A stretch of 64,000 nt of DNA from Candidatus Enterococcus ferrettii (GTDB lineage Bacteria; Bacillota; Bacilli; Lactobacillales; Enterococcaceae). The position numbers and the translations under genes were made by a program. The number at the start of each line of letters is the position of its first letter. Positions within the stretch are counted from its first letter, which is position 1. The notes under the pieces were generated by a model. It ran no database searches and was not told the origin of the DNA. It saw only the letters and a program-made list of their open reading frames with translations. Positions 11,684-62,027 of this stretch are shown piece after piece. The stretch lies in assembly GCF_017377655.1 (NCBI RefSeq), contig NZ_JAFREL010000020.1, positions 1 through 64,000 on the forward strand. The letters are read 5' to 3'.

Positions 11684-11761
11684 GAGGTTAGTCCTTCCTA
11701 TCAATTTGTCCGAACATTTTTTTCATTGTAGCATACTTCATCGCTGGAAGGGAATGCTTAC

Positions 11762-11792
11762 AAAAAAAGAGAGTACAGCTTTCGCCGTACTC
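11762..11792 (-). terminator. Terminator of the GH127 gene
   Basis: On the minus strand a GAGTAC/GTACTC stem with inner GGC/GCT pairing is followed by TCTTTTTTTG. It lies just after the GH127 stop codon. Confidence 0.8.
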
Positions 11793-11805
11793 CTGCGTTA
11801 CCCTT

Positions 11806-13776
11806 CTAGTTTTTTTCCTGATCCAACCAAACCGCCATATTCCCTTCCTCCCGGTTGGCCCAAGCATAGTAAGGAATCAGTTTTATTTTCGCGTCCTTCC
11901 ATTTTTTCGGAATGTATTCATGATAAAGAGAAGGCTCCTTTTCTTCTTCTGGTGTTTTTGCTGCTGCATAAATTACCCCTAAGCCACCTAATAATTCAGA
12001 TTCAAAGCGATAATCCAGCGGTTCATCAGATGCTAGACTATATTTCCAAACGGATTTTTCTTGATCTGCCTCTTCAAGACAATAAACCAGTGGTCCTCTT
12101 TGAATAGCGACTTTGCCAAAATTATAAACCACATTGGTATTAGATTGATATTTCTTGATTGACATGTCTAGAAGCAATTCAATACTTGTTGTCCCAGGTA
12201 CTGCTTCTAAATAGATAAAGCCATCGTTTAATTGGTAGTCTTGCATTTCCCCATTGATTGATAGTCGGGCATTTTTTTGTGACCATTGAGGGATTCGAAT
12301 ACCCAAAATACAGGATTCATCAGAAGTATTTTCTACTTTATAGTTGATCGTACCCTCCCATGGAAAATTGCTCTCTTGCTGAATCGTCACCCCGTTCTCA
12401 AAGGTAGCTTGGTTAGAAATAAACTGATGAGAAAGAATCACATCTTCTTTTACTGCATAAATGTATTGATCCACTGAGGCTATAAGCCGTGCAACATTGC
12501 TAGGACAGCAGGCACAACCAAACCACTCAGCCCGATGAGTCAACACATGATTGCGGCTAGGATTGTGCGCTGAAATGTCTGGATCTGCCTGCAGCGGGTT
12601 CACATAGAAGAAATGCGTGCCATCCAAAGAAATGCCGCTAATAATCCCATTGAATAATTGCTTTTCTAACACATCGGCATATTCGCCTTTGGTTTCCAGC
12701 TTAAGCATTTCTCTGGCAAAAAAGACCATGCCTACAGAAGCACAGGTTTCGCCATACATGGTGTCGTTAGGCAAATCATAATTGCCGGTAAAGGATTCTC
12801 CAATATTCGTGGAGCCTATACCACCTGTAATGTACATTTTTTGATGTACGATATTGTTCCAGAATCGCCGACAGGTTTCCAGCAGGCTTTTGTCACCAGT
12901 TAGTCGCGCAACCTGAGCCATCCCAGCGCAAAGATAAACGACTCTTACCGCATGTCCTTCTGCAGTTTCTTGTTGGCGTACCGGTTCAGCCGCTTGATAA
13001 TAGGACAAAGGAAAATTTCTCATCCCATCAATGACATCTCGATCTAGTCCGTCTGCAGCGATTTGCCGATCAAAGAAATCGTCTTGCCCACGTTGATCAA
13101 TAAAGAAATGAGCCAAGTCTAAATAGTTTGATTCTTCGGTTAGTTCATAAAGTCTCGCCAGTGCCAGTTCGATTTCAGGATGTCCATCGTATCCAGGAAT
13201 TTGATCTGCACCCGGACCAAAATGCTTCAGCATGCAGTCAGCCATTTTAACGGCAATTGACAAAGCTTTTTGATTTCCCGTAACTTCAAAATAAGCGACT
13301 GCAGCTTCAATATAATGCCCCATTGTATATAACTCATGGGACTGCTTCAATCGAGCAAACTTACGGTCTGGTGCCTCAATTTGGAAAAAACTAACTAAAT
13401 ATCCGTCATCCTCCTGAGCTTGAGCAATTAGATCAATCAAACGGTCGGTAATTTTTCTTAACTCCTTATCTGGATGATAGGTCAACGAATACGCCGCAGC
13501 TTCAAGCCATTTATAAACATCGGTGTCTTGAAAGGTATAGCCATTATGGGCACCTTCCTTTAGTCCAGCTGCAATTTCTAAATTTTGGATCGCATGGCTA
13601 TGCTCCTGATGCTCTTCATTTCCGCCAGGTTCATGGGTAATGGAAATATCGGCCGAATCATTCATCACTTCCCACTGATATGGCAATACCTCCTTCACAA
13701 TTAATTCCCGGTATTGGTTCCAGAATTCAGAAGTAATTTGGATGTCTTTTAACTGATTTTTCTTTTTAGTGATCAT
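11806..13776 (-). CDS. GH127 beta-L-arabinofuranosidase
   Basis: This enzyme should release L-arabinose from beta-L-arabinofuranosyl oligosaccharides. The protein is 656 residues from the ATG at 13776, which has GGAAAGGAAG ahead of it; the open frame extends back to a TTG at 13830 without a better site. The GH127 (formerly DUF1680) fold is indicated by YGETCASVGM, which supplies metal ligands, and GCACCPSN near residue 420, which holds the nucleophile Cys by analogy with HypBA1. There is no signal peptide, so it should work in the cytoplasm on imported sugars. It is divergent from an AraC-type regulator and upstream of araR. Confidence 0.92.
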   Translation of the reverse strand: MITKKKNQLKDIQITSEFWNQYRELIVKEVLPYQWEVMNDSADISITHEPGGNEEHQEHSHAIQNLEIAAGLKEGAHNGYTFQDTDVYKWLEAAAYSLTYHPDKELRKITDRLIDLIAQAQEDDGYLVSFFQIEAPDRKFARLKQSHELYTMGHYIEAAVAYFEVTGNQKALSIAVKMADCMLKHFGPGADQIPGYDGHPEIELALARLYELTEESNYLDLAHFFIDQRGQDDFFDRQIAADGLDRDVIDGMRNFPLSYYQAAEPVRQQETAEGHAVRVVYLCAGMAQVARLTGDKSLLETCRRFWNNIVHQKMYITGGIGSTNIGESFTGNYDLPNDTMYGETCASVGMVFFAREMLKLETKGEYADVLEKQLFNGIISGISLDGTHFFYVNPLQADPDISAHNPSRNHVLTHRAEWFGCACCPSNVARLIASVDQYIYAVKEDVILSHQFISNQATFENGVTIQQESNFPWEGTINYKVENTSDESCILGIRIPQWSQKNARLSINGEMQDYQLNDGFIYLEAVPGTTSIELLLDMSIKKYQSNTNVVYNFGKVAIQRGPLVYCLEEADQEKSVWKYSLASDEPLDYRFESELLGGLGVIYAAAKTPEEEKEPSLYHEYIPKKWKDAKIKLIPYYAWANREEGNMAVWLDQEKN

Positions 13777-47543: not shown

Positions 47544-49088
47544 TTATACTTCTGGAAACTCGTTACGAATCGTATAATCAAAAGCTCCTAATGCGGCAGT
47601 AGCACCAGATCCCATGGAAATAATAATTTGCTTGTAGGCACTGTCTGTGCAGTCTCCTGCAGCAAAAACCCCCTCCACATTAGTCGCTCCCTGTTTATCT
47701 ACCGGAATTTCTCCCCGATCAGTTAAAGCAATCGAACCTTGCAGCCACTCTGTATTTGGCATTAAGCCAATCAGAATGAAGACACCCTCAACTGCTAAGG
47801 TATGTTCCTCACTGGTTACTCGATCAGTGTAAGTAATTGCTTCAACGTGGCTTGAGCCAGTAATTTCTTTTGTTGCAGCATTAGTAATCACGGTAACGTT
47901 AGTTAATTGATGCAATTTATCCTGCAGAACTTTATCTGCTTTTAGCTCAGGCAGAAACTCTAAGACATAGACATGCTTAGATAAACCAGCTAGATCAATT
48001 GCCGCTTCAATTCCTGAATTTCCCCCACCTACAACTGCAACGTCTTTGCCTTTAAACAAAGGTCCATCACAGTGTGGGCAATAAGCAATCCCTTTGTTCT
48101 TAAACTCTTTTTCGCCGGGAACGTTAATTGCACGCCAGCGAGCACCAGTAGCTAAGATCGCCGTTTTAGACCGCAATTGAGCCCCATTTTCCAGTTCCAC
48201 TTCAATCCATTCATTTTTACGAATCGATTTAGCACGTTGGCCCTTCATAATATCAACACCGTATTGATTTACGTGTTCTTCAACCTGACGCATTAATTGA
48301 GGTCCTTCGACGTAAGGAGTTCCAATGACGTTCTCAATTCCTAAGGTTTCAAGGACTTGACCGCCAAAGGTTTCAACTACCATTCCGGTTTTGATACCCT
48401 TGCGAGCAGCATAAATTGCTGAACTGGCTCCGGCTGGCCCCCCACCGATTACTAATACATCGAAGGGTTCCTTCTCCGCGAATTCTTCGGCACCAAGAGG
48501 TCCGGCAATCTTCTCTATCAATTGTTCAATCGTGGTACGACCGCTGCTGAACTCTTCATCGTTCAAGAAAACAGTTGGTACTGCCATTACTTCTTTTGCG
48601 TCGATTTCTGATTGATACATGCCGCCTTCGATCATAGTGTGAGAAATTTTAGGATTCAACACAGACAGAATGTTCAAGGCCTGAACTACATCCGGACAAT
48701 TGTGGCAAGTCAAACTGACATAGGTTTCAAAATGAAGCTCTTTGTCGATCGCCTTGATTTGCTGAGCTACCTGATCTTCAATCTTCGGTGCACGTCCGCT
48801 TACTTGAAGCAAAGCTAAAATGAAAGAAGTGAATTCGTGACCCATTGGCAGTCCGGCAAAAGCGATACCGCTCTTCTCGGTGCTGGAACGATTGATTTCA
48901 AAGCTGGGAGTACGAGACAAGACTGCCTCCTGAACGGTAATTCGAGGAGTCATTTCTGCTACTTCGGATAAAAATTCTGCTACTTTTTTCGAATTTTCAT
49001 CCTCAGCTAAGCTAGCGGTCAGCACTACATCCGATTCTAATAATTCAAGGTATTGCTTTAACTGCGCTTTCGTTTCGTTATCTAACAT
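47544..49088 (-). CDS. ahpF: Alkyl hydroperoxide reductase subunit F (NADH:peroxiredoxin reductase)
   Basis: A 514-residue flavoprotein that passes electrons from NADH to AhpC. The N-terminal tandem thioredoxin-like domain carries Cys128-His-Asn-Cys131. The FAD-binding GGGPAG (about residue 215) is followed by the redox pair Cys337-Pro-His-Cys340 and a NADH-binding GGGNSGIEAA. The C-terminal FAD motif GVFAAGDCTD completes the thioredoxin-reductase-like part. It lies 10 bases after ahpC and is controlled from the same PerR-type promoter. Confidence 0.96.
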   Translation of the reverse strand: MLDNETKAQLKQYLELLESDVVLTASLAEDENSKKVAEFLSEVAEMTPRITVQEAVLSRTPSFEINRSSTEKSGIAFAGLPMGHEFTSFILALLQVSGRAPKIEDQVAQQIKAIDKELHFETYVSLTCHNCPDVVQALNILSVLNPKISHTMIEGGMYQSEIDAKEVMAVPTVFLNDEEFSSGRTTIEQLIEKIAGPLGAEEFAEKEPFDVLVIGGGPAGASSAIYAARKGIKTGMVVETFGGQVLETLGIENVIGTPYVEGPQLMRQVEEHVNQYGVDIMKGQRAKSIRKNEWIEVELENGAQLRSKTAILATGARWRAINVPGEKEFKNKGIAYCPHCDGPLFKGKDVAVVGGGNSGIEAAIDLAGLSKHVYVLEFLPELKADKVLQDKLHQLTNVTVITNAATKEITGSSHVEAITYTDRVTSEEHTLAVEGVFILIGLMPNTEWLQGSIALTDRGEIPVDKQGATNVEGVFAAGDCTDSAYKQIIISMGSGATAALGAFDYTIRNEFPEV

Positions 49089-49098
49089 TGTGCACTCC

Positions 49099-49662
49099 TT
49101 AAATTTTGCCTACTAAGTCAAAACTTGGCTTCAATGTTTCGCCATCTTCTTTCCATTTAGCTGGGCAAACTTCGCCTGGATGTGTACGTACGTATTGTGC
49201 AGCACGAATTTTATCTACTAAAGTGCTTGCATCCCGACCAATGCCATCTGCATTAATTTCCATTGCTTGAACGATACCATCTGGGTCAATAATGAAGGTA
49301 CCACGTTGTGCCAAACCAGATTCTTCATCCAAAACATCAAAAATACGTGAAATATGATGTGAAGGATCGCCAATCATTGTATAGTTAATTTTACCGATTG
49401 CATCAGAAGTGTCATGCCAAGCTTTATGAGTGAAATGAGTATCCGTTGAGCAAGAGTAGACTTCCACGCCTAATTCTTTTAATTTTGCATATTGTTCTTG
49501 TAAATCTTCTAACTCAGTTGGACATACAAAAGTAAAATCAGCGGGGTAAAAACAGACAACATTCCATTTGCCGGCAAAAGTCTCTTGAGAAACCTCAACA
49601 AATTCTCCTTGATGATACGCTTGTGCTTGAAACTCTTCTACTTGCTTTCCAATTAATGACAT
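49099..49662 (-). CDS. ahpC: Alkyl hydroperoxide reductase subunit C (peroxiredoxin)
   Basis: A 187-residue two-Cys peroxiredoxin that reduces H2O2 and organic peroxides. The peroxidatic Cys47 is in FTFVCPTE and the resolving Cys166 in [10 protein letters not shown]. The length and sequence are standard. AGGAGG precedes the ATG. It is the first gene of ahpC-ahpF and sits behind a promoter overlapped by a perfect PerR box. Confidence 0.97.
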
Positions 49663-50035: not shown

Positions 50036-52948
50036 TTATTGATGACTACTGCGTGATTTTTTTCTATATAAGTAGATAATCAACCCTTGTATTGCTAGGA
50101 TAACTACGCCTACGGCAATATCAATTTTAATTGCTTTTTGCTGCCAAGGCATCCATTGAGATGCAGAATCATAATTCTCATATTCACGACTGTTAACAAC
50201 AGTATACAAAATGTTATGAGCTGCTGTTCTCATTGCTTTAACCGTTGTTGCACTTTCGATGTCGTCAAGTCCTGCACCCGTTTCGCCAGTGGTTGATAAC
50301 ATCATATCGTTTCCGTTTCGAATTGCTTTATCAGCATCCATGTAGCCATAACCACCAAAGTAATCCGTTAAAACAAATCCATCAAATCCCCACTCGTCTC
50401 GCAATACCGTATTTAATAAGGTTGAACATCCGCCTGCCCATTGATTCCCAATATAGTTGAAGGCTGACATAGCAGCATTTGCACCGCCATCCTTAACCGC
50501 CATTTCGAATGGTTTTAAGTAAACTTCCCGAATCGCTTGTTCGGTAGACCAAGTCAATAGCAAATCAGTCCGATTCGTTTCTTGATCATTCAAGGCAAAA
50601 TGTTTCATGTATGAATAGACACCTTTTGATTTTGCTCCAGCGATTTCATTAGCTGCCATTACACCTGAAAGTACTCCATCCTCTGAATAATATTCAAAGT
50701 TCCGACCAGAAAAGGCGCTTCTATGAATATTCATTGCGGGACCATACCAGCCAGAAATTCCAATTTCGGCTGCTTCTTCACCCACAGCTTCGCCGCGATC
50801 CTCAGCTAATTTTTCATTCCAAGTTGCAGCAATCATTGTTGCAGTAGGAAAAGCTGTTCCCTTGGCTTGAACAAAGAAGCTGCTGATTCCGGCTGGGCCA
50901 TCAAAGTCGTAGGTTTGCAATTTACCAACAGATTTTGCTGCAACCGTTTGATACCCACCATAGGTAATTAAGTTGCTCATGTCTTTCACAGTCATTTGAT
51001 CCAGCAGCTTGTCCCATTTCTTGTCTTCATAATCCAAGCCGGCTAAATCATTTAATTCCATGCCATTCGATACACCTGTTTTAGGCATTTTGTCTTTGGC
51101 ATCATTCTCAATTTTATAATCTTCTGCGTTCGTTAAACCATCTTTTTCTAAGTCAGTCAATGGACGGCTCTTAGGTTCAGCAATAGTTGCTTCGTAGTTT
51201 GTAAAATTGTCTTTACGACTCAGATATTCTACTTCACCTGTAGCAAAATCCGTAAATTGATTTTCCGCTGTTACTTCATCAGTACTACGTTTATTCTCAC
51301 CATTGTAAGTGATCGTTCGTCCCAACGTGTAGGGTTTGCTATCCAATGTGTCATGAGAATTAGCTTTTAGAGCAATTGTGTATTCTCCTTCTTCCAAAAC
51401 ATAAGATTTAGCCGTTTGATTATCAAATGAAGCCATATCCTCCTGATTAAAGGACACTTTTAATGTTTGGCTTTCTCCGGGTTTCAATTCTTTTGTTTTT
51501 TCAAACACTAACAGATTCGCTGCAGCTTTTTCGATCCCCCCGTTTTTATAGGGTGGCGTAAAGTAAGCTTGAACAACATCTTTTCCCGCTACATCCCCAG
51601 TATTTCGGACAGTTACATCAAATTCAATGGTTCCATCACTTTTTGTTTGTAAATCTCCCATCGTTTGTTCAAAGTTGGTGTAACTCAGACCATAACCTAA
51701 TGGATACTGAACGGCTTTTGAATACCCTTCTTGATTGTCTTGGTAGTAGGTTTCGTAAAACTTGTAGCCTACATAAATATTCTCCACATAATCTACAAAT
51801 TTATATTTACTATCATCGTAAGAGAAATCACCAAAGTTGTTCCAAGTTGGTGTCTCCTTAAGATCGTATACAAAGGTATCGACTGTCTTTCCGGATGGAT
51901 TAACCGATCCATTTAAAACATTTCCTAATGCTGAAAACCCAGTAGCACCAGGTCCAGCCATCCATAAAGCACTCTTGATGTTTTCATAATCATTCAACCA
52001 GCCAAGTTCCATAGCATTCGATGAATTAATTAATACGACAACATCTTTGAAATTCTCAGTGACTAAATCCACCATATCTTTTTCAGTTTTCGTTAACTCT
52101 AGATAATGATCGCCAGCATCGAAATCTCCTTCATTTCCTTTGTAAGTAATGTCCTTAGACTTCATATCAGTTGGCAAATCAGCCCCTTCTCCACCTACAC
52201 GAGAAATGACAATCAATGCTGTGTCTGAGAATTCTTTGGCATCATCAACTAATTGATCAGAATAATCACTTCTCTTAGGTTCAACTAAGGTCCAGTCCTG
52301 CTCCCACATACCAACTACCGGGCGATCCTTACGATAATCCGTGTAAAAATCAGACAGCTGATCATTCAAAGCAAAACCTGCATCCTGCAGACCACTCAAA
52401 ATAGTGGTAGCATTACTCGTGTCAACATTTCCAGAGCCAGTACCACCGTATACAGGATTGGTAGATGCCCAGCCAAAAACATTTAGTTTTTTATTTCCTT
52501 CAGCCAAGGGAAGATAATTATCCGTATTTTTTAACAGGACCGTTCCCTCATTGGCAATTTCTTCTGTTAGTTCGCCATTTTTCTTCAAAGTAGCTGCACT
52601 AACGTTTTCTAAACTCGCATAATTCAAGTTAAACAAGTTAGACATTGGACCAAAAACAATCGTGTTTACAGTAATCATAATTGCGATTAGCATGACTACG
52701 ATCGATTCACCTTTGAGCCAGAATTTAAATTTCCACTCTTTATTTCTAAAGACAATTAAAGCGATAATTATAAGTACTAATAAAACAACAGCAGGAATGA
52801 AGTAGACAGAAACTTTTTTAATAGTGGCATAAACATCCTCCATGTTCAGCACACCGTCTTGACTCAATTTGTTTAAATAAAATGCAGCAAAACCTGCAAT
52901 TGCTAAAACAACCACCACAGGTATTAGTATTTTACGATACTTTTTCAA
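50036..52948 (-). CDS. Membrane-anchored GH3 glycosidase with permuted domain order
   Basis: A 970-residue protein with three N-terminal TM segments (about 8-25, 48-68, 82-100) and one C-terminal TM segment (about 942-960). The catalytic part lies between them, probably outside the cell. The usual GH3 order is reversed. The alpha/beta-sandwich domain (from about 130, ANEGTVLLKN) comes first, then a fibronectin III-like domain (about 430-530). The barrel comes last, with KHFALNDQETNR and the nucleophile region VLTDYFGG (Asp862). Its own LytTR-type operator lies 150-185 bases upstream. The substrate is unknown; a beta-linked surface sugar is likely. Confidence 0.9.
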   Translation of the reverse strand: MKKYRKILIPVVVVLAIAGFAAFYLNKLSQDGVLNMEDVYATIKKVSVYFIPAVVLLVLIIIALIVFRNKEWKFKFWLKGESIVVMLIAIMITVNTIVFGPMSNLFNLNYASLENVSAATLKKNGELTEEIANEGTVLLKNTDNYLPLAEGNKKLNVFGWASTNPVYGGTGSGNVDTSNATTILSGLQDAGFALNDQLSDFYTDYRKDRPVVGMWEQDWTLVEPKRSDYSDQLVDDAKEFSDTALIVISRVGGEGADLPTDMKSKDITYKGNEGDFDAGDHYLELTKTEKDMVDLVTENFKDVVVLINSSNAMELGWLNDYENIKSALWMAGPGATGFSALGNVLNGSVNPSGKTVDTFVYDLKETPTWNNFGDFSYDDSKYKFVDYVENIYVGYKFYETYYQDNQEGYSKAVQYPLGYGLSYTNFEQTMGDLQTKSDGTIEFDVTVRNTGDVAGKDVVQAYFTPPYKNGGIEKAAANLLVFEKTKELKPGESQTLKVSFNQEDMASFDNQTAKSYVLEEGEYTIALKANSHDTLDSKPYTLGRTITYNGENKRSTDEVTAENQFTDFATGEVEYLSRKDNFTNYEATIAEPKSRPLTDLEKDGLTNAEDYKIENDAKDKMPKTGVSNGMELNDLAGLDYEDKKWDKLLDQMTVKDMSNLITYGGYQTVAAKSVGKLQTYDFDGPAGISSFFVQAKGTAFPTATMIAATWNEKLAEDRGEAVGEEAAEIGISGWYGPAMNIHRSAFSGRNFEYYSEDGVLSGVMAANEIAGAKSKGVYSYMKHFALNDQETNRTDLLLTWSTEQAIREVYLKPFEMAVKDGGANAAMSAFNYIGNQWAGGCSTLLNTVLRDEWGFDGFVLTDYFGGYGYMDADKAIRNGNDMMLSTTGETGAGLDDIESATTVKAMRTAAHNILYTVVNSREYENYDSASQWMPWQQKAIKIDIAVGVVILAIQGLIIYLYRKKSRSSHQ

Positions 52949-53068
52949 TTTGTATCCCCTTCCATATTGTGAAAATTAGCTTGCAAAGCCGATACCCATT
53001 CGCTTTTCCCACCAAGACACACCGGTTTGTCTCAGTAGAAAAAGCACATGTAACCCTTTACAAGGCAT

Positions 53069-53135
53069 AGTATAGCAACGGAATTGAACAATAAAACAGC
53101 TCATTCATATCTTGTTGCTATTTATTCATAACTTG
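53069..53135 (-). promoter_or_regulatory. LytTR-type operator and -10 of the permuted GH3 gene
   Basis: ATTCATA occurs at 53103-53109 and 53124-53130, a 21-bp period, inside a longer sequence (53097-53135) shared with the other GH3 promoter. A TATACT -10 (minus strand, 53069-53074) lies 28 bases from the proximal repeat, with no good -35, as expected for an activator-dependent promoter. Confidence 0.75.
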
Positions 53136-53176
53136 CGTTCACCCACTGGCAAGCAACTGAAAACAAGTAGCGAATC

Positions 53177-54190
53177 TTAATTAAAACCGTAAAATCGTTT
53201 GGCAATTTGATAGGCTCCAATCGCTGTTTTCCTTCCCAGCTTTCCTGGAAGATTTACACCCAGACCAAACAATCCTCTTCGCAATCTTCTGTATAGAACT
53301 GGATCGCTTTTTCTAATAAATTCCCATAATTCTTGCTTTTTATGCATACTGTCTGATGATCCCTCTTTGATTAAAAAAATCGAGGAAACCGTTGTGATAA
53401 TTTCGACATACCGTTGCATATATTTCAATAGACTTTCGTCTTCTACCTGTACATCTGAATAGAAAGTGACCATTCGCTTATTGACAGCTAATTGCTGATC
53501 AATTCGTTTAATCATTACTTGTTCATTAACGGATTGATCCTCTCTGCCGATAAAATAGCGATATAAATTCACATTTAAATAATGCATATTCTTTACTAAT
53601 GGCAATGGCTGAAAAATATACAGGTTATCAACATAGAAAGTATGCTGAGGCAAATTCAAAGACAATTCCTTTAAAATACTCGAACGATAAATGACCGAAT
53701 GCATCAGTAAATATTTCCCCAGCGGAAAACGAACATCTTCCCAAGAAAAAACTTGATCGACTGGTAGAAAAGATTCATAAGAGATAATTTTCTTGTTCTT
53801 TGCTCCTTGCTTTTCGTAAACATAATTACTGATAAGCATGTCAATCGGCGAATTATTTTGAATGGTGTCTGTTAGCTTTTGCAAAACTTGTTGATAAGCA
53901 TTGGCTTCTAGCCAATCATCACTGTCCACTACCTTCACATAGTGACCTGTTACATATTCCATTCCCGTATTGATCGCTTGACCGTGCCCACCATTTTCCT
54001 GATGAATCGTCTTGATGATTTCTGGGAAGTAATTGGCATAATGATCAGCAATTTCTGCTGTACGGTCTTTAGACCCGTCGTCGACAATGATAATCTCAAC
54101 CGCTTCTTTTCCTAGTAATAAAGAATTAATGCAGCGTTCCATATAATCTGCTGAATTGTAGCAGGGAACAATTAGACTAAGTATTTTCAT
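53177..54190 (-). CDS. GT2-family glycosyltransferase
   Basis: A 337-residue GT-A fold glycosyltransferase starting at ATG 54190. The N-terminal LSLIVPCYNSADYMERCINSLL, VEIIIVDDGSKDRT, and the VDSDDWLEANAY (DxD-type) segment are typical of GT2 enzymes. The C-terminal basic region (RRLRRGLFGLGVNLPGKLGRK) may bind membrane, but no TM segment is evident, unlike CsbB-type enzymes. Its start overlaps the GtrA stop by four bases. It likely transfers a sugar to undecaprenyl phosphate or a surface polymer in concert with GtrA. Confidence 0.9.
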   Translation of the reverse strand: MKILSLIVPCYNSADYMERCINSLLLGKEAVEIIIVDDGSKDRTAEIADHYANYFPEIIKTIHQENGGHGQAINTGMEYVTGHYVKVVDSDDWLEANAYQQVLQKLTDTIQNNSPIDMLISNYVYEKQGAKNKKIISYESFLPVDQVFSWEDVRFPLGKYLLMHSVIYRSSILKELSLNLPQHTFYVDNLYIFQPLPLVKNMHYLNVNLYRYFIGREDQSVNEQVMIKRIDQQLAVNKRMVTFYSDVQVEDESLLKYMQRYVEIITTVSSIFLIKEGSSDSMHKKQELWEFIRKSDPVLYRRLRRGLFGLGVNLPGKLGRKTAIGAYQIAKRFYGFN

Positions 54191-54714
54191 GATTCGTTTT
54201 CTTTCTTCATTATTTTGAATTTCATCATTGGATAGTTTATCAGAACTTGAATGACGATGTTCACAATATTTGCGACAGTCGGTGCAAAGTTTCCGATATA
54301 AGGTGACAGCCGAGCGATAATATATGGCGGCAGCCATACTGAGATAAGTCCAGCTACTGTAACTGTGGCGATATACCAAGGCAATACCTTTTTCACATCC
54401 ACAGTGGCGGAAAATACTACCTTTCGTTGAACGATAAAATTAACAATTTGCGCACAGATGTAGGCAACTAGAAAACTTAGAAAGCCTCCCAAGCCTCCTT
54501 GTTCGGTTCCGTAATTAAAGATAAACCAATTAAATGGGATAGTGCTTAATCCTGAGAAAACAATCCCTGTACCAATCCATAACACTAAGAAATTGGTTAT
54601 CGTCGCTACATTACTCATAATATTGAACAAAATAAATTCATAAACATCTGGATGTTCATATTTAAAATGCTTGATAATTTGTACCAGTTTGTTGCCTGAT
54701 TGACTTTGCTTCAT
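54187..54714 (-). CDS. GtrA-family membrane protein (putative flippase)
   Basis: A 175-residue protein with four TM segments (about 25-50, 68-92, 107-130, 145-165) typical of the GtrA/GtcA family, which is thought to flip undecaprenyl-phosphate sugars across the membrane. It lies 12 bases after the GH3 gene and overlaps the GT2 gene (ATGA). The GtrA + GT2 pair is a known module for decorating teichoic acids or O-antigen-like glycans. Confidence 0.88.
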   Translation of the reverse strand: MKQSQSGNKLVQIIKHFKYEHPDVYEFILFNIMSNVATITNFLVLWIGTGIVFSGLSTIPFNWFIFNYGTEQGGLGGFLSFLVAYICAQIVNFIVQRKVVFSATVDVKKVLPWYIATVTVAGLISVWLPPYIIARLSPYIGNFAPTVANIVNIVIQVLINYPMMKFKIMKKENES

Positions 54715-54726
54715 GCGCTTCCTCCT

Positions 54727-57120
54727 CTACTTTGCTTTTTGAAGCTTACGATTTTGAAAAAATTGCTTAGTTAAACCAGCAAAGCCCTTGAAAAAGTGAC
54801 CATTTACCATAACCAGCATTTCATCAACCATGGCTAAACTAACCATTCCGTTTGTCATTTTAGCAATTGCTCTAAAAGGCATATTAGAAATAAATAGTAA
54901 ATTCAGATCCGGTTTGCCCTTTCTTTCGCTTCTTTTAAGCAGAGCACGGATAATCCGATGAACAAAACGAGCCAATGGATTCTTCGCTTGATTCATCTCG
55001 TCAATAATACTTGTCCGATTCAACAGATGCTGACCGCTGGTTTCTTCCTGAGGAACCTTTTGTCCATATAATTTCTCAAAATCAGCCAAAGTAATCTCTT
55101 CAAGTTTCGCTGCTTGATAATTTGGCAACACGACATAATCTTCAGGTTCTGTTCCTGTGATCAGTAGTTTTCCTTCTAAGCGGATATCTTTGACTGAACT
55201 CGCTAACATAATGTTGTATTCACCAGATTCTGTTTTCCAAGATCTACTCTCAACGTCATAATAGCGAAAACTCTTATCATCAAATGCGAGTTCAATCATT
55301 TTACTTTCTCCAGGCTGTAGAAATACTTTGACAAATCCCTTTAACTCCTTCGTGGGTCTCACTAAAGGTGAAGAAGACTTGCCGATATATAATTGAACAA
55401 TTTCTGAACCAGCCTGCTCACCAACATTAGTTATCACTGCCTTAACACCTGAGTTGGTAATAATTAGTTCACTGTATTGAAAACTCGAGTAGCTTAAACC
55501 ATAGCCAAAAGGATAACGAACAGCTTTTTGAGCCTTATCATAATAACGATACCCAACATACAGTCCTTCTTTGTAGTAGACGTATCGCCCCTTAGCTGGA
55601 AACTCCTTACCAAAAGGCACATCCTGGTAGGAAATTGGATACGTTTCATTGAGTTTTCCGCTAGGATTGTGATGTCCGCAGATGACTTCCAACATTGCAC
55701 TGGCCCCAGCCTCGCCACCAAGATACCCATGCAAAATACCTTGTACTTCTTTTTCCCATGAGCATTCAACAACAGAGCCGGCTGACAAAACTACTACAAT
55801 TGGTTTTTTTGCCGCTGCTAATTCTTGAATTAATGCCAGTTGGTTTTTTGGCATGTCAATCGTTGTCCGATCCATTCCTTCGCTTTCTAAAATTTCATCC
55901 AGTCCTGCATAAAGCAAAATTACATCACTCTTTTTTGCTAATTCAAGGGCTTCATTCACTAATTGGTCATTGCTTTTTCCACCGCGTTCATACCCTTTTG
56001 CAAAACCGACGACAGTCAGAGGATACTCTCCAATAACGTCTAAGGTCGTTTCCAAATTCTTTGCGTTCACTACTGATGAACCTGCCCCTTGATAGCGGGG
56101 AGTTTGAGCGAAGTCTCCAATGACAGCAACTTTTTTTTCTGAAGTCAATGGCAAGATGTTCGCTTCATTTTTCAGCATAACAATGCTCTCCATTGCTGCT
56201 TTCTTTGCTACTTCGTGATGCTTCTGCCAATCGATCGTTCCATTAGCTGATGAAAAATCAACTGCTTGAACAACCGATAAAAACTCATCTACTCGTTGAT
56301 CCAATACAGCTTCTTCAAGTTCTCCATTTTCCACTGCGTTAACCAGCTCTAAGGTACCGTTTTTACCTAAGGTCGGCATTGCTAAATGGCTGCCATTTTT
56401 GACACCAGCTGTATGATCGTTGTCCCCACCCCAGTCAGAAACAACGAAGCCTTCGAATCCCCATTCCTCCTTCAAAAGGTCTCTAAGCAGGTAAGAATCT
56501 TCATTGGCATAGTTCCCATTTACTAAGTTGTAGGCAGACATAATCGATTTAGGCTGACCTTCTTTTACAGCGATTTCAAAATTGGTTGTGTAGATTTCTC
56601 TCAACGTTCGTTCATCCACAATCGAATCCGAAGCCATCCGCCGGTATTCCTGGCTGTTAACTGCAAAATGTTTTGGGCTTGCGATTGTTCCATTAGCTTG
56701 AATCCCTCTAATGCTTGATGCAGCAAGTTTTCCGGCTAAATAAGGATCTTCACTATAGTATTCAAAGTTTCTGCCGCATTTGGGGTTTCGCTTAATATTT
56801 AATCCAGGTCCCAGAACGACATTGACATCTAGAGCCTTCGCTTCTTCACCGATACATGTACCTACTTGATAAACTAAATCTTCATCCCAGCTGTTGGCCA
56901 AGGTGGCTGCTGTTGGAAAACACGTGGCAGGCAGACTTGCATTTAACCCTAGATGATCCGCTTCACCGACTTGTTTTCTCAAGCCATGAGGACCATCAGA
57001 CATGAATATTGCTGGTATCTTCTCTGGAATATCTTGGGATTCCCACGTATTCTTGCCTGACATTAGCGAAGCTTTTTGCTCTAACGTGAGCTTTTCAATA
57101 ATTTTTTTATTCTTCAGCAT
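54727..57120 (-). CDS. GH3 beta-glucosidase-like enzyme
   Basis: A 797-residue glycosidase with the usual GH3 order: barrel (about 1-290), alpha/beta sandwich (about 300-520) and fibronectin III-like domain (about 560-640), then a C-terminal extension of about 130 residues. Typical residues are MSDGPHGLR, GRNFEYYSEDPYL, SPKHFAVNSQE and FVVSDWGGD with the nucleophile Asp at about 229. There is no signal peptide, so it should act in the cytoplasm. The ATG at 57120 is preceded by AAGGTGAG; a GTG at 57129 is possible. It is the first gene of an operon with GtrA and GT2, behind the LytTR-type operator. Confidence 0.9.
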   Translation of the reverse strand: MLKNKKIIEKLTLEQKASLMSGKNTWESQDIPEKIPAIFMSDGPHGLRKQVGEADHLGLNASLPATCFPTAATLANSWDEDLVYQVGTCIGEEAKALDVNVVLGPGLNIKRNPKCGRNFEYYSEDPYLAGKLAASSIRGIQANGTIASPKHFAVNSQEYRRMASDSIVDERTLREIYTTNFEIAVKEGQPKSIMSAYNLVNGNYANEDSYLLRDLLKEEWGFEGFVVSDWGGDNDHTAGVKNGSHLAMPTLGKNGTLELVNAVENGELEEAVLDQRVDEFLSVVQAVDFSSANGTIDWQKHHEVAKKAAMESIVMLKNEANILPLTSEKKVAVIGDFAQTPRYQGAGSSVVNAKNLETTLDVIGEYPLTVVGFAKGYERGGKSNDQLVNEALELAKKSDVILLYAGLDEILESEGMDRTTIDMPKNQLALIQELAAAKKPIVVVLSAGSVVECSWEKEVQGILHGYLGGEAGASAMLEVICGHHNPSGKLNETYPISYQDVPFGKEFPAKGRYVYYKEGLYVGYRYYDKAQKAVRYPFGYGLSYSSFQYSELIITNSGVKAVITNVGEQAGSEIVQLYIGKSSSPLVRPTKELKGFVKVFLQPGESKMIELAFDDKSFRYYDVESRSWKTESGEYNIMLASSVKDIRLEGKLLITGTEPEDYVVLPNYQAAKLEEITLADFEKLYGQKVPQEETSGQHLLNRTSIIDEMNQAKNPLARFVHRIIRALLKRSERKGKPDLNLLFISNMPFRAIAKMTNGMVSLAMVDEMLVMVNGHFFKGFAGLTKQFFQNRKLQKAK

Positions 57121-57152
57121 CTTACTCACCTTTTTTCAATTTATGAAATCAA

Positions 57153-57218
57153 TTTATCATCAAAGTAAACGGTAACAAACAGTTCATTCATACTTTGACA
57201 ATTTTTATTCATAACCTG
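57153..57218 (-). promoter_or_regulatory. LytTR-type operator, cre-like site and -10 of the GH3-GtrA-GT2 operon
   Basis: ATTCATA occurs at 57186-57192 and 57207-57213 with a 21-bp period, inside 57180-57218, which closely matches the sequence at 53097-53135. A GATAAA -10 (minus strand, 57153-57158) lies 27 bases from the proximal repeat. Between them AGTAAACGGTAACA (57164-57177) matches the cre consensus at 13 of 14 positions, suggesting activation by the LytTR regulator and repression by CcpA. Confidence 0.75.
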
Positions 57219-57258
57219 TTTTTTCAAAGCCTAAAACGATGGGTTCACAAAAACAACC

Positions 57259-57286
57259 TTGCTTTAGAATCAACATTAATTATAAT
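57259..57286 (+). promoter_or_regulatory. Promoter of the LytTR two-component operon
   Basis: TTGCTT (57259-57264), 16 bases and TATAAT (57281-57286), about 40 bases before the response-regulator ATG. Confidence 0.65.
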
Positions 57287-57326
57287 AAATGAGAGTAGAT
57301 TGAATTTTTTGGGGAGGTTCGTTCTT

Positions 57327-58034
57327 ATGAAAATTGCCATCGTAGAAGATGACATTCAGCAACAGAATTGCTTTATATCGCTGGTTAATCGATACACAGC
57401 TGAAAACAGCTTGCCAGTTAGTATCACATCTTTTAATGACGGAATTGATATTGTTGAAAAATATAAGGGGGATTTTGATGTTATTTATTTTGATGTAGAA
57501 ATGCCAATAATGGATGGTATGACTTCCGCTAAAAAAATTCGAGCAATGGATCCTAATGTCATCATCGTATTTCTGACAAATTATGTACAATTTGCCATTG
57601 ATGGTTACGCAGTGAATGCGGATGACTTTTTATTAAAACCCTTAACTTATTTTAATTTCAGTGAACATTTCAAAAAAATAGTCAAAAAATTATCGAATAC
57701 TACCGATCAGACCATAACTATTAAAACAAATTCTGGTATTCGAAAAATTTTGCTAGAGGATTTAATATATGTGGAATGTGAGGGGCACTATTTATATTTT
57801 TACACCAATGATCAAGTCTATTCCTTTCTTGGCTCCATGAAGAATATTGAAAGCGAATTAAAACCGAAACATTTCTTCCGTTGTAATAATTGTTATTTAG
57901 TCAATTTAAAGCATGTCAAAGCGGTTGATGGAAGTACTGTCCATGTCGGCAGGTTTGATTTGCGGATCAGCCGCCCTCGAAAGAAGGATTTCATGGCTGC
58001 TTTAACGAATTATTTGGGAAGTGGGGGAGTCTAG
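57327..58034 (+). CDS. LytTR-family response regulator
   Basis: A 235-residue regulator with a receiver domain (about 1-120; acidic pair in IVEDD, phospho-acceptor Asp56 in IYFDVEMP, Lys in LLKPL). A C-terminal LytTR DNA-binding domain follows (about 135-230, IYVECEGHYLYFYT, FFRCNNCYLVNLKHV). GGGGAGG lies nine bases before the ATG at 57327; a long open extension to 57195 is not supported. Its kinase starts directly after its stop. The divergent GH3 operon and the second GH3 gene both carry paired repeats suited to LytTR binding. Confidence 0.93.
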   Translation: MKIAIVEDDIQQQNCFISLVNRYTAENSLPVSITSFNDGIDIVEKYKGDFDVIYFDVEMPIMDGMTSAKKIRAMDPNVIIVFLTNYVQFAIDGYAVNADDFLLKPLTYFNFSEHFKKIVKKLSNTTDQTITIKTNSGIRKILLEDLIYVECEGHYLYFYTNDQVYSFLGSMKNIESELKPKHFFRCNNCYLVNLKHVKAVDGSTVHVGRFDLRISRPRKKDFMAALTNYLGSGGV

Positions 58035-59339
58035 TTGAACGAACTGCTGCCGAATATTCCTCGTTTTTACACAGCCCTCGCTGAGTGGATCGCTTGCATA
58101 TTTGTGATACTTCAATTTGATAAACAAACCTGGAAAAGCAGCGCATTGATTGTTCTGCCGTTCATGGGAATTGGTCAAATTATCTTACAGTTATTGGTCG
58201 GCACTTGGCCGTTGCTGTTTTGGATCCCTGGAATGATTTTAAATGTATTGTGGATGCTTTTGACTCTCTATCTTGCTGTGGACATTTCACAATTCAGCTA
58301 TCTTTATAATTTGTGCAAAGCCTTCATCTTTGCTGAATTTATCGCCTCTGTCTCTTGGCAGTTGTTTTGCGTTCTCTTTTTGAGGTCAACGAAGCATTTT
58401 GCTGTTCCGTTAGTATTTATGCTTATGATGTACATAATTTTTTCCTTGCTCTATTACATCTTTGAAAAACGCAGTCCTCACCAGGTTGTCTTAAAGAATA
58501 TTAAAAAAAGAGAGGTTGTTATCGCAGCTCTTTCCGCAATTATCATCTTTACTGTAAGCAATATGGGGTTTATGTTTTCACAAACATTTTTAGTTGCTGG
58601 TGATGGTCAGTCCATTTTCATCTTTCGGACCTTCATTAACTTATGTGGATTACTGATTCTCTATATTCAGGAAGGAATGCGATATGACATCTATTTACGA
58701 AGCGAGCTTTCCTCCATTAACAATGTCCTGCAGTCGCAATATGAACAATACGAAGCGTTTAAAGAGAGTAATGCTTTGGTCAGTCAGAAATTTCATGATC
58801 TAAAACATCAGCTGGATATTATTGAAATGGAATCAGAGCCTGCTAAGAGAAAAGAATATGTTAATCAATTAAAAAAAGACATCACTCAATACCAAGCTAC
58901 CGTAAAAACGGGAAATGCTATCATGGATGTCATCTTAACTCGAAAAAACAGCTTTTGCATTCAAAACAAAATTACCTTTACTTGTATCGTAGATGGAAAA
59001 TTAATGGATTTTATCGAAGTTATGGATCTATGCAGCTTACTGGGGAATGCTTTAGACAACGCAATTGAATCCACCTTAAAAAATAGTGATACCGACAAAC
59101 GATTGATCAACCTGCGAGTGGAAAAAAAGGCTGGCTTCGTGCTGTTTTTACTAAACAATTACAGTGAAGATCGGTTGTCTTTCGAAGATGGCCTGCCCCA
59201 AACAACAAAGGATGATAAAGAGTCCCACGGATATGGCTTGAAGAGTATTTCCTATATCGTTAATAAATACGATGGAACAATGACCATTAGCCATGAAAAC
59301 AATTGGTTCTCCTTGAAAGTATTGTTACCAATCTCCTAA
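58035..59339 (+). CDS. GHKL sensor histidine kinase of the LytTR system
   Basis: A 434-residue kinase of the AgrC/ComD-like class with six N-terminal TM segments (about 1-215) as sensor. The dimerisation helix follows (about 250, KFHDLKHQLD with the phospho-accepting His), then a GHKL ATPase domain (N-box LLGNALDNAIES, GYGLKSISYIV). The start is TTG 58035, directly after the regulator's stop, with GGGGAG five bases ahead. Kinases of this class often sense peptides or envelope signals. No pheromone precursor gene is visible nearby. Confidence 0.92.
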   Translation: MNELLPNIPRFYTALAEWIACIFVILQFDKQTWKSSALIVLPFMGIGQIILQLLVGTWPLLFWIPGMILNVLWMLLTLYLAVDISQFSYLYNLCKAFIFAEFIASVSWQLFCVLFLRSTKHFAVPLVFMLMMYIIFSLLYYIFEKRSPHQVVLKNIKKREVVIAALSAIIIFTVSNMGFMFSQTFLVAGDGQSIFIFRTFINLCGLLILYIQEGMRYDIYLRSELSSINNVLQSQYEQYEAFKESNALVSQKFHDLKHQLDIIEMESEPAKRKEYVNQLKKDITQYQATVKTGNAIMDVILTRKNSFCIQNKITFTCIVDGKLMDFIEVMDLCSLLGNALDNAIESTLKNSDTDKRLINLRVEKKAGFVLFLLNNYSEDRLSFEDGLPQTTKDDKESHGYGLKSISYIVNKYDGTMTISHENNWFSLKVLLPIS

Positions 59340-59395: not shown

Positions 59396-60496
59396 TTAGG
59401 ACTCTTTCGAGGCAAGGCTGAGTGCTTCATCAATTACCTGATGCATATCAAAATAGCGGTACATCCCCAAACGTCCGCCAAAAATCACCTGTTCATCCTG
59501 ATCTGCTAATCGTTCGTAGCGTTGATAAGTTTGCTGATTTTTGTCATTGTTCACAGGATAATAGGGTTCATAGCCTTTTTTCCAAGTTTTTGGATACTCC
59601 TTGGTAATAATCGTTCGTTCCTGTGTGCCAAACTCAAAATGTTTATGCTCAATGATACGGGTGTATGGTACTGTCTTATCAATATAATTCACTACAGCGT
59701 TCCCCTGAAAATTGTCTGTTTCCAGTATTTCATGTTCAAAAGTTAGAGAACGATACTCTAGTTCCCCATAACAATAATTGTAATACTCATCAATCATGCC
59801 TGTATAAATAATCTTTTCGTAACCTGCCAACCATTTTTCTTTGTTTTCCATAAAGTCGGTACTTAGGTGCAGTTGGATATTCGGATGATCCAGCATTTTT
59901 TCAACAATCTGAGTATATCCACCTATAGGAATTCCTTGATACAAATCATTGAAATAATTATTGTCGAAGGTCAAACGCACAGGAAGGCGCCGAATAATAA
60001 AAGCGGGCAGCTCTGAACAGGGTTTCCCCCATTGTTTTTCCGTATATTCCTTAATCAAGGTTTCATATATGTCGCTGCCAACCAACGAAATAGCCTGTTC
60101 CTCAAGGTTTTCCGGCTCCTTGTTATGAGGAAGGCGACTTTGCTGAGCAATTTTTTCTTTTACTTCCTTTGGTGTTTTTAATCCCCATAAAGCATAGAAG
60201 GTGTTCATATTGAAGGGGAGATTGTACAGCTTACCTTTGCTCAATGCAACGGGTGCATTGGTAAATCGATTAAATTCTGCGTACTGATTAACGAACTCCC
60301 AAATTCTTTTATTGGATGTATGGAAGATATGCGCGCCATATTGATGAACCTGCACACCCTCTGTTTCCTTGGTGTAAATATTTCCAGCAATATGTTCGCG
60401 CTTTTCCAGCACGGTTATCTTGTGACCCTTGGCTGCCATTTGACTGGCAAAAACCGCACCGAACAAACCGCTGCCAACGACTAAATAATGTGTCAT
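59396..60496 (-). CDS. glf: UDP-galactopyranose mutase
   Basis: A 366-residue FAD enzyme that interconverts UDP-galactopyranose and UDP-galactofuranose for galactofuranose-containing surface polymers. The N-terminal FAD motif VVGSGLFGAVFASQMA is followed by QYGAHIFHTSNKRIWEFVN and GGYTQIVEKML, and ends with RYFDMHQVI, typical of bacterial Glf. GGAGG lies seven to eight bases ahead of the ATG at 60496. It is a single gene, convergent with the LytTR kinase, and may feed surface glycans handled by the neighbouring cluster. Confidence 0.95.
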   Translation of the reverse strand: MTHYLVVGSGLFGAVFASQMAAKGHKITVLEKREHIAGNIYTKETEGVQVHQYGAHIFHTSNKRIWEFVNQYAEFNRFTNAPVALSKGKLYNLPFNMNTFYALWGLKTPKEVKEKIAQQSRLPHNKEPENLEEQAISLVGSDIYETLIKEYTEKQWGKPCSELPAFIIRRLPVRLTFDNNYFNDLYQGIPIGGYTQIVEKMLDHPNIQLHLSTDFMENKEKWLAGYEKIIYTGMIDEYYNYCYGELEYRSLTFEHEILETDNFQGNAVVNYIDKTVPYTRIIEHKHFEFGTQERTIITKEYPKTWKKGYEPYYPVNNDKNQQTYQRYERLADQDEQVIFGGRLGMYRYFDMHQVIDEALSLASKES

Positions 60497-60563
60497 CACT
60501 TTTCCTCCCCAAATCATAATCACTAAACAACCTATCACAATTCAGGGTGATTTTCTATAGTTT

Positions 60564-62027
60564 TTATCCAAAGTGATGATTGATGTACAACTGCACACGT
60601 TGCATGGATTTTTTTGTGGGGAAAATTTCCCAATAGAGAATTTTATCCGAATCAAAGTTCATGTTTTCATAAATTCGGTCGGCAATTACCAAGCAAGTGT
60701 CCTTTCCAACCGTATTGGTGACCACTAATTCGACCGCCAATTGCTGAGTTAAATTACGCTTGATAACTTCTATGTACTCATCTCCGAAAACCGAAAGAAT
60801 ACACACGGAAATCTGCTGGTTTTCTCTTTCCACTTCAATATACTGACTAATCAAAAATTTATAGCTCATCAACAAAAAAGTCTTATTCTTTAGCAGCGAG
60901 GGTTCTTTAGCTGCCAACTCATCAAACATCTGCTGAACCTTATAATCAAAACTCGAATTGGTGAATAAAGCAGCACTGAGATCCATTTCCATCAATACTC
61001 CTGCACCATGAAAGGTTAGAGCCTTGACATGCTTGTGCACCAGATTAGCATACAGCAAACCGTAATCCTTGGCTGATGGATAAACTGAGAACTGTTTATA
61101 AAACTCTGATAACCATTGATTTGTCAGAGTTCCAGCACGCAGCTGATGTGTTTGACAATAAAAAAGCATGTCGCCAATATTGTTATTATCAGAAAGATGA
61201 TATTCCTGAGAAAAAAGGAATAGGTAAGCATAAGCCAGTTCTGCTTTGATTTGCGTTTGGTCATTTATCCGGAAAAACAATTGGAATAACGGTTTGATTT
61301 TTTTGTATAATTGCTGAAAATGCCAACTGTCCTGCAGCATTTCATGCTCTAAAATGACTGGGTCGACGTAATTCTTTTGCATAATTCTAGTAATGATTAC
61401 ACCTAAATCATTGGCTACCTTCTGCTTTTCTACGATTCCCAGTTGCCGACCGCGAACCTTTTCTACATATTTGATGGAGCGTTCAATAATTTTTTTGTTC
61501 ACCTTGGGAAATGGCCAAGAGACCCCACTGCTGGAATGCCAGAAAAATTCTGAGTAGAAGAATCGAATTTGATGCTCGCTGCCATAAAGCTGGCCGCTGC
61601 TATTCGTACTGAAGTTCAAATCGAAGGCTTGAAGCGTCGGATTTAATGCTTGTATTTTTTTGTAAAGCGAATTATAAGAAATGAATTGTCTCTCTGCGAA
61701 ATCCTTTAAACGAATTTCGCCATTGTGAAAGAGCACCACCATCGCCTGATACTGAACACTTTCATCTAAATAATTCAACAGAATACGATGGAGAGAAAAA
61801 TTCTCCTTTGCCTGTAAGTAAACATCGGCACGTTCTTTGATTATAGCCGGTTCTTTTAGCTGCCAGTCATTAAAATCTTCTTGAATGGATTCAATCGAAT
61901 GCAGGACAGTTCCCCTAGCTACTTGCAACAATTGGCTCAATTCATCAATCGTAACCTTTTCTCTATCATTTAACAGCGTCAATATCGCTACTTTCCGCCT
62001 AACACTTACATCTAAAAACTTTTTCAA
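60564..62027 (-). CDS. Mga-family transcription regulator
   Basis: A 487-residue stand-alone regulator. It has an N-terminal helix-turn-helix (about 10-60, RKVAILTLLNDREKVTIDELSQLLQVARGTVL in two halves), a second Mga HTH (about 90-130) and a long helical, PRD-like middle. The C-terminus is EIIB-like. This is the layout of Mga/AtxA/MafR virulence-type regulators. The start is TTG 62027 with AAGGAG seven bases ahead. An exact 16-bp palindrome lies upstream. The target genes are unknown; glf follows on the same strand 67 bases later. Confidence 0.85.
   Translation of the reverse strand: MKKFLDVSVRRKVAILTLLNDREKVTIDELSQLLQVARGTVLHSIESIQEDFNDWQLKEPAIIKERADVYLQAKENFSLHRILLNYLDESVQYQAMVVLFHNGEIRLKDFAERQFISYNSLYKKIQALNPTLQAFDLNFSTNSSGQLYGSEHQIRFFYSEFFWHSSSGVSWPFPKVNKKIIERSIKYVEKVRGRQLGIVEKQKVANDLGVIITRIMQKNYVDPVILEHEMLQDSWHFQQLYKKIKPLFQLFFRINDQTQIKAELAYAYLFLFSQEYHLSDNNNIGDMLFYCQTHQLRAGTLTNQWLSEFYKQFSVYPSAKDYGLLYANLVHKHVKALTFHGAGVLMEMDLSAALFTNSSFDYKVQQMFDELAAKEPSLLKNKTFLLMSYKFLISQYIEVERENQQISVCILSVFGDEYIEVIKRNLTQQLAVELVVTNTVGKDTCLVIADRIYENMNFDSDKILYWEIFPTKKSMQRVQLYINHHFG

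Follow-up and report, generated by a model that had tools for sequence, protein, structure and literature searches.

Introduction

In Butyrivibrio proteoclasticus B316, response regulators of the LytTR type are encoded near secreted glycoside hydrolases of family 3 (GH3) with a C-terminal transmembrane (TM) helix, and the passage of the genome report that deals with them counts three such cases (PMC2914790). The same pairing, a LytTR gene beside that of a membrane GH3, occurs in a gene module of Candidatus Enterococcus ferrettii, an enterococcus close to E. pallens, which we analyse here in a window of 64,000 nucleotides (positions 1 to 64,000 of contig NZ_JAFREL010000020.1, assembly GCF_017377655.1). 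The module encodes a LytTR response regulator (RR) and a sensor histidine kinase (HK), one GH3 enzyme with and one without predicted TM helices (GH3tm and GH3sol), a GtrA-family membrane protein, a family 2 glycosyltransferase (GT2) and a UDP-galactopyranose mutase (GLF). The B316 account treats its pairs in one sentence, in the context of polysaccharide-utilisation loci (PULs), and says nothing there of an operator, a mutase, a GT2 or a soluble partner of the GH3; GtrA appears nowhere as a term in the text of that paper. The initial annotation of the window had known of no described system with this combination; this overlooks the Butyrivibrio pairs, and the set is better termed hardly described, its prior mention being the association of LytTR with membrane GH3 genes noted in 2010 for one genome of that genus (PMC2914790). 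No functional description of a LytTR/GHKL-GH3-GtrA set was found in the open-licence literature. The relevant sections of PMC5320581 and PMC5945754 hold nothing on the module, and the GtrA-family genes that are raised in a B. breve co-culture are not shown, in the section concerned, to belong to it (PMC11418510).

Systems of GtrA, GtrB and a GT-C enzyme, for which sections of two papers propose that sugars carried by polyprenyl phosphate are added outside the cytoplasm (PMC11127046, PMC7117936), share with the module a GtrA-family protein beside a GT2. In the module, however, no TM tail is predicted for the GT2, a GT-C enzyme was not seen at the locus, the genes usually found alongside encode a two-component system and GH3 glycosidases, and UDP-galactofuranose (UDP-Galf) is the probable donor. 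A GT2 domain and a GtrA-like TM domain are joined in the archaeal dolichyl-phosphate mannose synthase (DPMS) 5mlz; the model of the module GtrA resembles that TM domain, but here the two parts are separate proteins from overlapping genes. AgrC/AgrA-type systems have the same kinase core fold (6e52) as HK. AgrA operators are built from 9-bp direct repeats with 12-bp spacing, and the putative operators of the module have this layout as well. In contrast to AgrC/AgrA, the module has no peptide gene that we could see, a conserved sensor and glycosidases as targets.

Our results point to a dedicated two-component regulon, of the LytTR type, by which a Galf-containing, membrane-linked envelope glycan is remodelled, a scheme that we hold, taken as a whole, to be about evenly balanced between right and wrong. 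The envelope-glycan theme had been put forward when the window was first annotated and is supported here.

Results

One operator pattern at both GH3 promoters

The minus strand of the window carries, read from right to left, GH3sol, GtrA, GT2 and, after a gap of 228 bp, GH3tm; RR and HK lie on the plus strand, divergent to GH3sol-GtrA-GT2 (Table 1). Read on the coding strand, the two GH3 promoters share the pattern CARRNTATG-N12-CARRNTATG, which consists of two 9-bp direct repeats with a period of 21 bp. The pattern was derived from these two sites, whose exact match is by construction; no third exact site was found in the 5.4-Mb genome of the organism, where 0.05 would be expected by chance from base composition. 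We regard the paired direct repeats as putative RR sites at both targets. That the RR regulon spans both GH3 transcription units, as the initial annotation, which had noted a shared operator, had proposed, appears very probable to us. With up to two mismatches, 77 matches were obtained in the same genome compared with 42 for a backwards-pattern control, and a second operator scan at this stringency gave 11 compared with 6. A wider regulon was considered on this basis, but the excess over the control, not split by mismatch level, is modest in both scans and we claim no third target.

A score of 16/16 was reached by nine distinct upstream regions from the window and from loci L011, L124, L009 and L026 (loci are cited by our own numbers); these regions shaped the motif and thus provide no independent test. 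L125 repeats L011, whose GH3tm is 92% identical to that of the window. The motif was tested on 170 further upstream regions, all distinct, of genes for GH3tm or GH3sol. Nearly all of them come from outside the Lactobacillales; L123, a Lactobacillales locus within this test set, gave no match, and L122 was left out together with the motif-defining group. At a period of 21, 22/170 regions scored at least 14/16, compared with none for the reversed motif and none on the opposite strand, and at the other periods between 12 and 30 at most five of the 170 regions did so. The matches include nine loci of Bifidobacterium (L039, L044, L052, L055, L058, L059, L073, L075 and L077) and the clostridial loci L027, L029, L030 and L062. 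Several come from close relatives, so that they represent fewer than 22 independent events, and at least two (GH3sol of L067 and L106) fall within what appears to be coding sequence of the GH3tm gene ahead and are likely to be false. At the weaker score of at least 13, the forward strand exceeded the controls at many periods (at period 12, for example, by 16 to 1 and 1), and we rely on the peak of scores of at least 14 at period 21 only.

Co-conservation of the gene set

We collected the best 80 of 588 GH3tm relatives in named genomes, ranked by similarity to GH3tm, and counted partners within 8 kb by profile search, repeating the counts with a corrected RR profile. RR and HK together were found in 56/80 loci and in 40 of the 45 that are well flanked (at least 6.5 kb on both sides). 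By chance, 13 LytTR genes in 5.4 Mb would give about 0.05 per stretch of this size. GH3sol was present in 37/45 well-flanked loci, GtrA in 38/45 and all five genes in 32/45. The five well-flanked loci that lack the regulator pair are L031, L061 and L066, with neither gene within 8 kb, and L038 and L083, with RR only; in L066 a pair lies approximately 9 kb away.

Because the named set was ranked by similarity, we also drew a family sample of 200 genomes around the Roseburia inulinivorans locus L024. At E≤1e-250, GH3tm was detected in 18 of these genomes, the centre included, at 23 places, 22 of which were analysed (the remaining one is L024 itself) and 17 of which have full flanks. Among the 17, RR+HK were found in 13, GH3sol in 12, GtrA in 13 and all five genes in 10; L110 and L115 carry GH3tm without the regulator pair. 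The two sets overlap at L103 with L062 and at L104 with L035. Carriage is patchy: 3/20 genomes of the genus and 4/398 of the phylum (as defined by the search tool) have the module, our own included in each count.

GH3 homologues thus stand mostly together with LytTR genes, as expected of the conserved unit first proposed, and a consistent separation of the two was looked for and not found. The core of five genes, along with a recognisable operator, has been retained in Bacillota and in Bifidobacterium, and many of its carriers are gut bacteria. Signs of decay were seen in L123, where GH3tm has two internal stops, and in L150, where the HK, GH3sol and GtrA frames are split.

The sensor kinase and its cue

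Both domains of RR score above their curated cut-offs (PF04397, 63.2 bits vs 22.6; PF00072, 50.8 vs 30.2), as does the kinase domain of HK (HATPase_c_5, PF14501, 97.3 vs 22), which follows a multi-TM sensor in a hydropathy scan. The AlphaFold model of HK (pLDDT 80.5) matches kinase cores including that of S. aureus AgrC (6e52; Foldseek probability 1.00), and the 50 Foldseek matches listed for the fold of the sensor domain were uninformative on a ligand. In an alignment of 45 full-length module kinases, that of the window included, nine sensor residues are invariant: P9, W63, E101, W108, F172, S175, N176, R198 and G205. This argues for one conserved cue, as opposed to hypervariable pheromones.

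GHKL/LytTR pairs are typical of peptide quorum sensing, and the match to AgrC would suit a kinase that reads a secreted peptide or glycosylated signal, with the GH3 enzymes maturing or destroying it. The conserved sensor speaks against such cell-cell signalling. Moreover, no precursor was evident by eye among the open reading frames (ORFs) of 20-104 aa that overlap the two intergenic regions, the RR frame aside, and no peptide, AgrB-like or exporter family formed a constant cluster in the 80 loci (ORFs of at least 60 aa; no AgrB profile search was made). We therefore consider a signalling role improbable. A DUF2207 membrane protein adjoins the kinase in L144 and L151.

UDP-galactopyranose mutase, GT2 and the likely sugar

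GLF is convergent to HK. It exceeds the cut-off of the UDP-galactopyranose mutase equivalog TIGR00031 (433.7 vs 303.75 bits) and is the only such mutase found in its genome. The gene set had been described as self-contained, but it is incomplete without GLF, which points to the likely sugar. A search of the Lactobacillales with the HK alignment returned 20 places in 19/345 genomes, our own included, and the 19 other places were analysed. GH3sol, GtrA, GH3tm and GT2 were each present in 15/19 loci, although not the same 15, the GT2 of L151 being a weaker match. GLF lies in or beside the module in 9/19: L134, L136, L137, L139, L141, L142, L147, L148 and L150. Close relatives among these are L141 with L142, L139 with L150, and L134 with the window. 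As the position of GLF varies between loci (within the row of genes in L137 and L141/L142, at the end of the row in L139, L147, L148 and L150), it is not merely a shared flank. GT2 and GLF also occur together beside the module in L080 (Gemmiger) and in L122 (another Bacillota).

In the family sample of Lachnospiraceae-type genomes, GT2 is near-core and mostly single-copy (165/200). It is present in 18/18 module genomes compared with 147/182 others (p=0.047; tallied by hand), and 160/181 genomes with GLF encode GT2, compared with 5/19 without (Fisher p=1.3e-8, hand tally, uncorrected for shared ancestry). Twenty surroundings of GT2 were selected by hand, most of them for genes that ranked highest by score, and three are cut short by contig ends. 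In 5/20 the GT2 frame is adjoined by a mutase frame at a distance of -48 to +4 nt (stop-to-stop), and the three of these five mutases that were checked all score above the UDP-galactopyranose mutase cut-off. Within the genus, GLF is present in 3/3 module genomes and in 5/17 others (p=0.049). We consider it likely that GT2 handles Galf, taken from UDP-Galf. A gene that we named MutY-like from its sequence lies near GT2 in 12/20 of the surroundings.

GtrA beside a GT2 without a predicted membrane tail

GtrA scores 34 bits against PF04138 (cut-off 26.1), a family named GtrA/DPMS by Pfam. The top three PDB matches of its AlphaFold model (pLDDT 80.6) are all DPMS (5mlz, 9ep0 and 5mm1, with Foldseek probabilities of 0.99, 0.99 and 0.92), a fold relation that is consistent with the family name. 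Enzymes of the GtrB/CsbB type carry C-terminal TM helices; none were found in GT2 by hydropathy scan. Nor was a GT-C transferase seen among the eight window proteins scanned or among the conserved clusters, which is as far as the search for one extended, so that the classic GtrA-GT2 route that had been assumed for the module is incomplete at the locus. A soluble GT2 and a separate DPMS-like GtrA may together represent a split polyprenyl-phosphate-sugar synthase, and the overlap of the GtrA stop with the GT2 start (ATGA) suggests translational coupling.

In 66 of the 68 loci having both, GH3sol and GtrA share a strand and are separated by less than 300 nt. The same holds for 57 of the 59 of these loci whose analysed stretch contains no GT2, as would be expected if the module served plain glycolipid salvage: GtrA would flip glycolipids inwards and both GH3 enzymes would strip sugars to free the lipid carrier, with GT2 and GLF as bystanders. 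Against this, GLF and GT2 share a locus with the module in several Lactobacillales genera, with GLF in varying positions, and we find such a role improbable.

The two GH3 enzymes

A domain scan found the N- and C-terminal GH3 domains in both enzymes, and the motifs TDY/SDW and a C-domain Glu are present and conserved in the GH3 alignments; the Asp of TDY/SDW and this Glu are the putative catalytic residues. GH3tm has a permuted order (GH3_C, 135-422; Fn3, 456-530; GH3_N, 691-889). GH3_C also precedes GH3_N in the structure-solved permuted beta-glucosidases 5wug and 5k6l, from which GH3tm differs by its four predicted TM helices and its two-component neighbours. Three of these helices are N-terminal and one is C-terminal in a simple hydropathy scan; the N-terminus, the second loop and the C-terminus were judged by eye to be positively charged, and the catalytic domains are for this reason predicted to lie outside the membrane. 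GH3sol has the ordinary order and no TM helix in the same scan, so that the prediction of one enzyme outside and one inside agrees with what had first been proposed. After the Fn3-like domain, GH3sol continues in a conserved C-terminal extension of approximately 140 aa (residues ~661-800) with no Pfam match. Conservation is strongest at residues 741-760 (mean entropy 0.55), and through this extension the enzyme may attach to the membrane or to GtrA.

The locus could also be a small Gram-positive equivalent of a PUL, in which the kinase senses plant or host glycosides and GH3tm cuts outside and GH3sol inside, for carbon. Many named carriers are gut and rumen bacteria, the closest solved relatives of the GH3 enzymes are named beta-glucosidases, and the available account of B316 assigns its three LytTR/GH3 pairs to PULs (PMC2914790). 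A family that looks by eye like a peptide-type ABC-transporter ATPase occurs in 13/80 loci. No transporter is constant, however: in clustered ORFs of at least 60 aa, no family besides GH3, HK, RR and GtrA was found in more than 13/80 loci, and no dedicated carbohydrate transporter is among the module genes. GtrA, GT2 and the mutase, moreover, are synthesis-type genes. A nutritional role thus seems unlikely to us, and we think it fairly probable that the module serves envelope-glycan remodelling instead.

Discussion

In the remodelling mechanism that we propose, HK would sense a conserved cue and phosphorylate RR. The regulator would then occupy two 9-bp direct repeats on one face of the DNA, at a period of 21 bp, upstream of both GH3sol-GtrA-GT2 and GH3tm, and would change the two transcription units together, whether upwards or downwards. 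GLF would make UDP-Galf available, and the soluble GT2, which the DPMS-like GtrA would tether to the membrane, would add Galf to a lipid or glycolipid. GtrA may carry the Galf-lipid across the membrane, or may keep the enzymes there. Outside, GH3tm would trim residues of the glycan, and GH3sol, encoded beside GtrA almost everywhere, would act inside on glycosyl lipids or oligosaccharides. The gene set, the operator, the co-conservation and the link between GT2 and the mutase come from computation; the binding of RR and the sign of its effect, the substrates of the GH3 enzymes, the acceptor, the direction of GtrA and the signal are inferred. The surface of B. bifidum PRI1 carries beta-glucan/galactan and a phosphoglycero-beta-galactofuran, according to the relevant section of a review (PMC12413058), and a glycan of this type is a plausible acceptor in one carrier genus. 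The module would thus point to sensor-driven editing of a surface galactofuranose glycan in its carriers. With the operator, the regulon becomes predictable from sequence and the signal and the glycan directly testable.

Several findings weigh against this reading. The operator score was not reached in 148/170 of the other upstream regions, so that the operator must have drifted or lie elsewhere in most loci. GT2, which the initial annotation had treated as a fixed member, is beside the module in only 7 of the 80 named loci, and GLF in only 2. GLF is also near-universal in the family sample (181/200), so that its presence says little about the module; it was dropped as a module marker in the Lachnospiraceae, and only its adjacency to GT2 and its co-occurrence with that gene were used there. 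L108 and L109 of the same sample have GH3tm with none of its partners, and in the Lactobacillales L149, L151 and L152 have a module-type kinase without either GH3 gene, the latter two ending at contig ends. The fold match of GtrA to DPMS is weak (Foldseek E 0.2-0.4, TM-score 0.45-0.52). For GH3sol, the closest solved structures (8J9F and 9LQL) are named beta-glucosidases, the best NCBIfam model is an exo-alpha-(1->6)-L-arabinopyranosidase (718.8 bits, below the cut-off of 1300), and no structure or NCBIfam match names a furanosidase.

A variant of the remodelling scheme would assign the missing GT-C step to GH3tm. As a retaining glycosidase at the membrane face, GH3tm would act as an extracytoplasmic transglycosidase that moves sugar onto the envelope glycan, while GT2 and GtrA would make and flip a polyprenyl-phosphate sugar and GH3sol would hydrolyse excess lipid-linked sugar inside. 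We regard this variant, in all its parts together, as a long shot. If true, it would represent a glycosidase-based glycosylation under two-component control, in which glycosidases take part in building surface glycans and not only in trimming them.

Gene starts, features and neighbouring genes

All six genes of the initial annotation were found in place, with three starts corrected (Table 1). RR begins at ATG 57327 instead of 57195, preceded by an SD-like GGGGAGG at 57311-57317; GT2 begins at ATG 54190, and GH3sol probably at ATG 57120.

Table 1. Features of the module in the window
Feature	Position	Strand	Remark
GH3tm, permuted GH3 (GH3_C - Fn3-like - GH3_N)	50036..52948	-	catalytic domains predicted extracytoplasmic
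Putative operator 2, CAAGTTATG-N12-CAAGATATG	53106..53135	-	upstream of GH3tm
GT2 glycosyltransferase	53177..54190	-	337 aa, no predicted TM
GtrA-family membrane protein	54187..54714	-	175 aa
GH3sol, GH3_N - GH3_C - Fn3-like	54727..57120	-	no predicted TM
Putative operator 1, CAGGTTATG-N12-CAAAGTATG	57189..57218	-	divergent GH3sol/RR promoter region
RR, receiver + LytTR response regulator	57327..58034	+	235 aa
HK, multi-TM sensor with AgrC-like GHKL kinase domain	58035..59339	+	
GLF, UDP-galactopyranose mutase	59396..60538	-	

No structured RNA was found in the window, with 0 Rfam matches at gathering thresholds. A regulator of the AcpB/EbpR/MafR type (Mga-like; 60564-62027, 155.8 bits vs a cut-off of 130) adjoins GLF, and a second LytTR gene, outside the conserved set, lies approximately 6 kb from HK on the same contig, just right of the window (C71:65513-65788). 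Beside GH3tm, an MprF-like lysylphosphatidylglycerol synthase gene was identified by Pfam in L139 (13752-16403) and, by similar N-terminal sequence only, an MprF-like gene in L150 (15027-17714). In the window, GH3tm is adjoined by ahpC-ahpF (49099-49662 and 47544-49088), and sequences that read as ahpC-ahpF are also found in L140, a locus of another family, at the HK end of the module (10776-12969).

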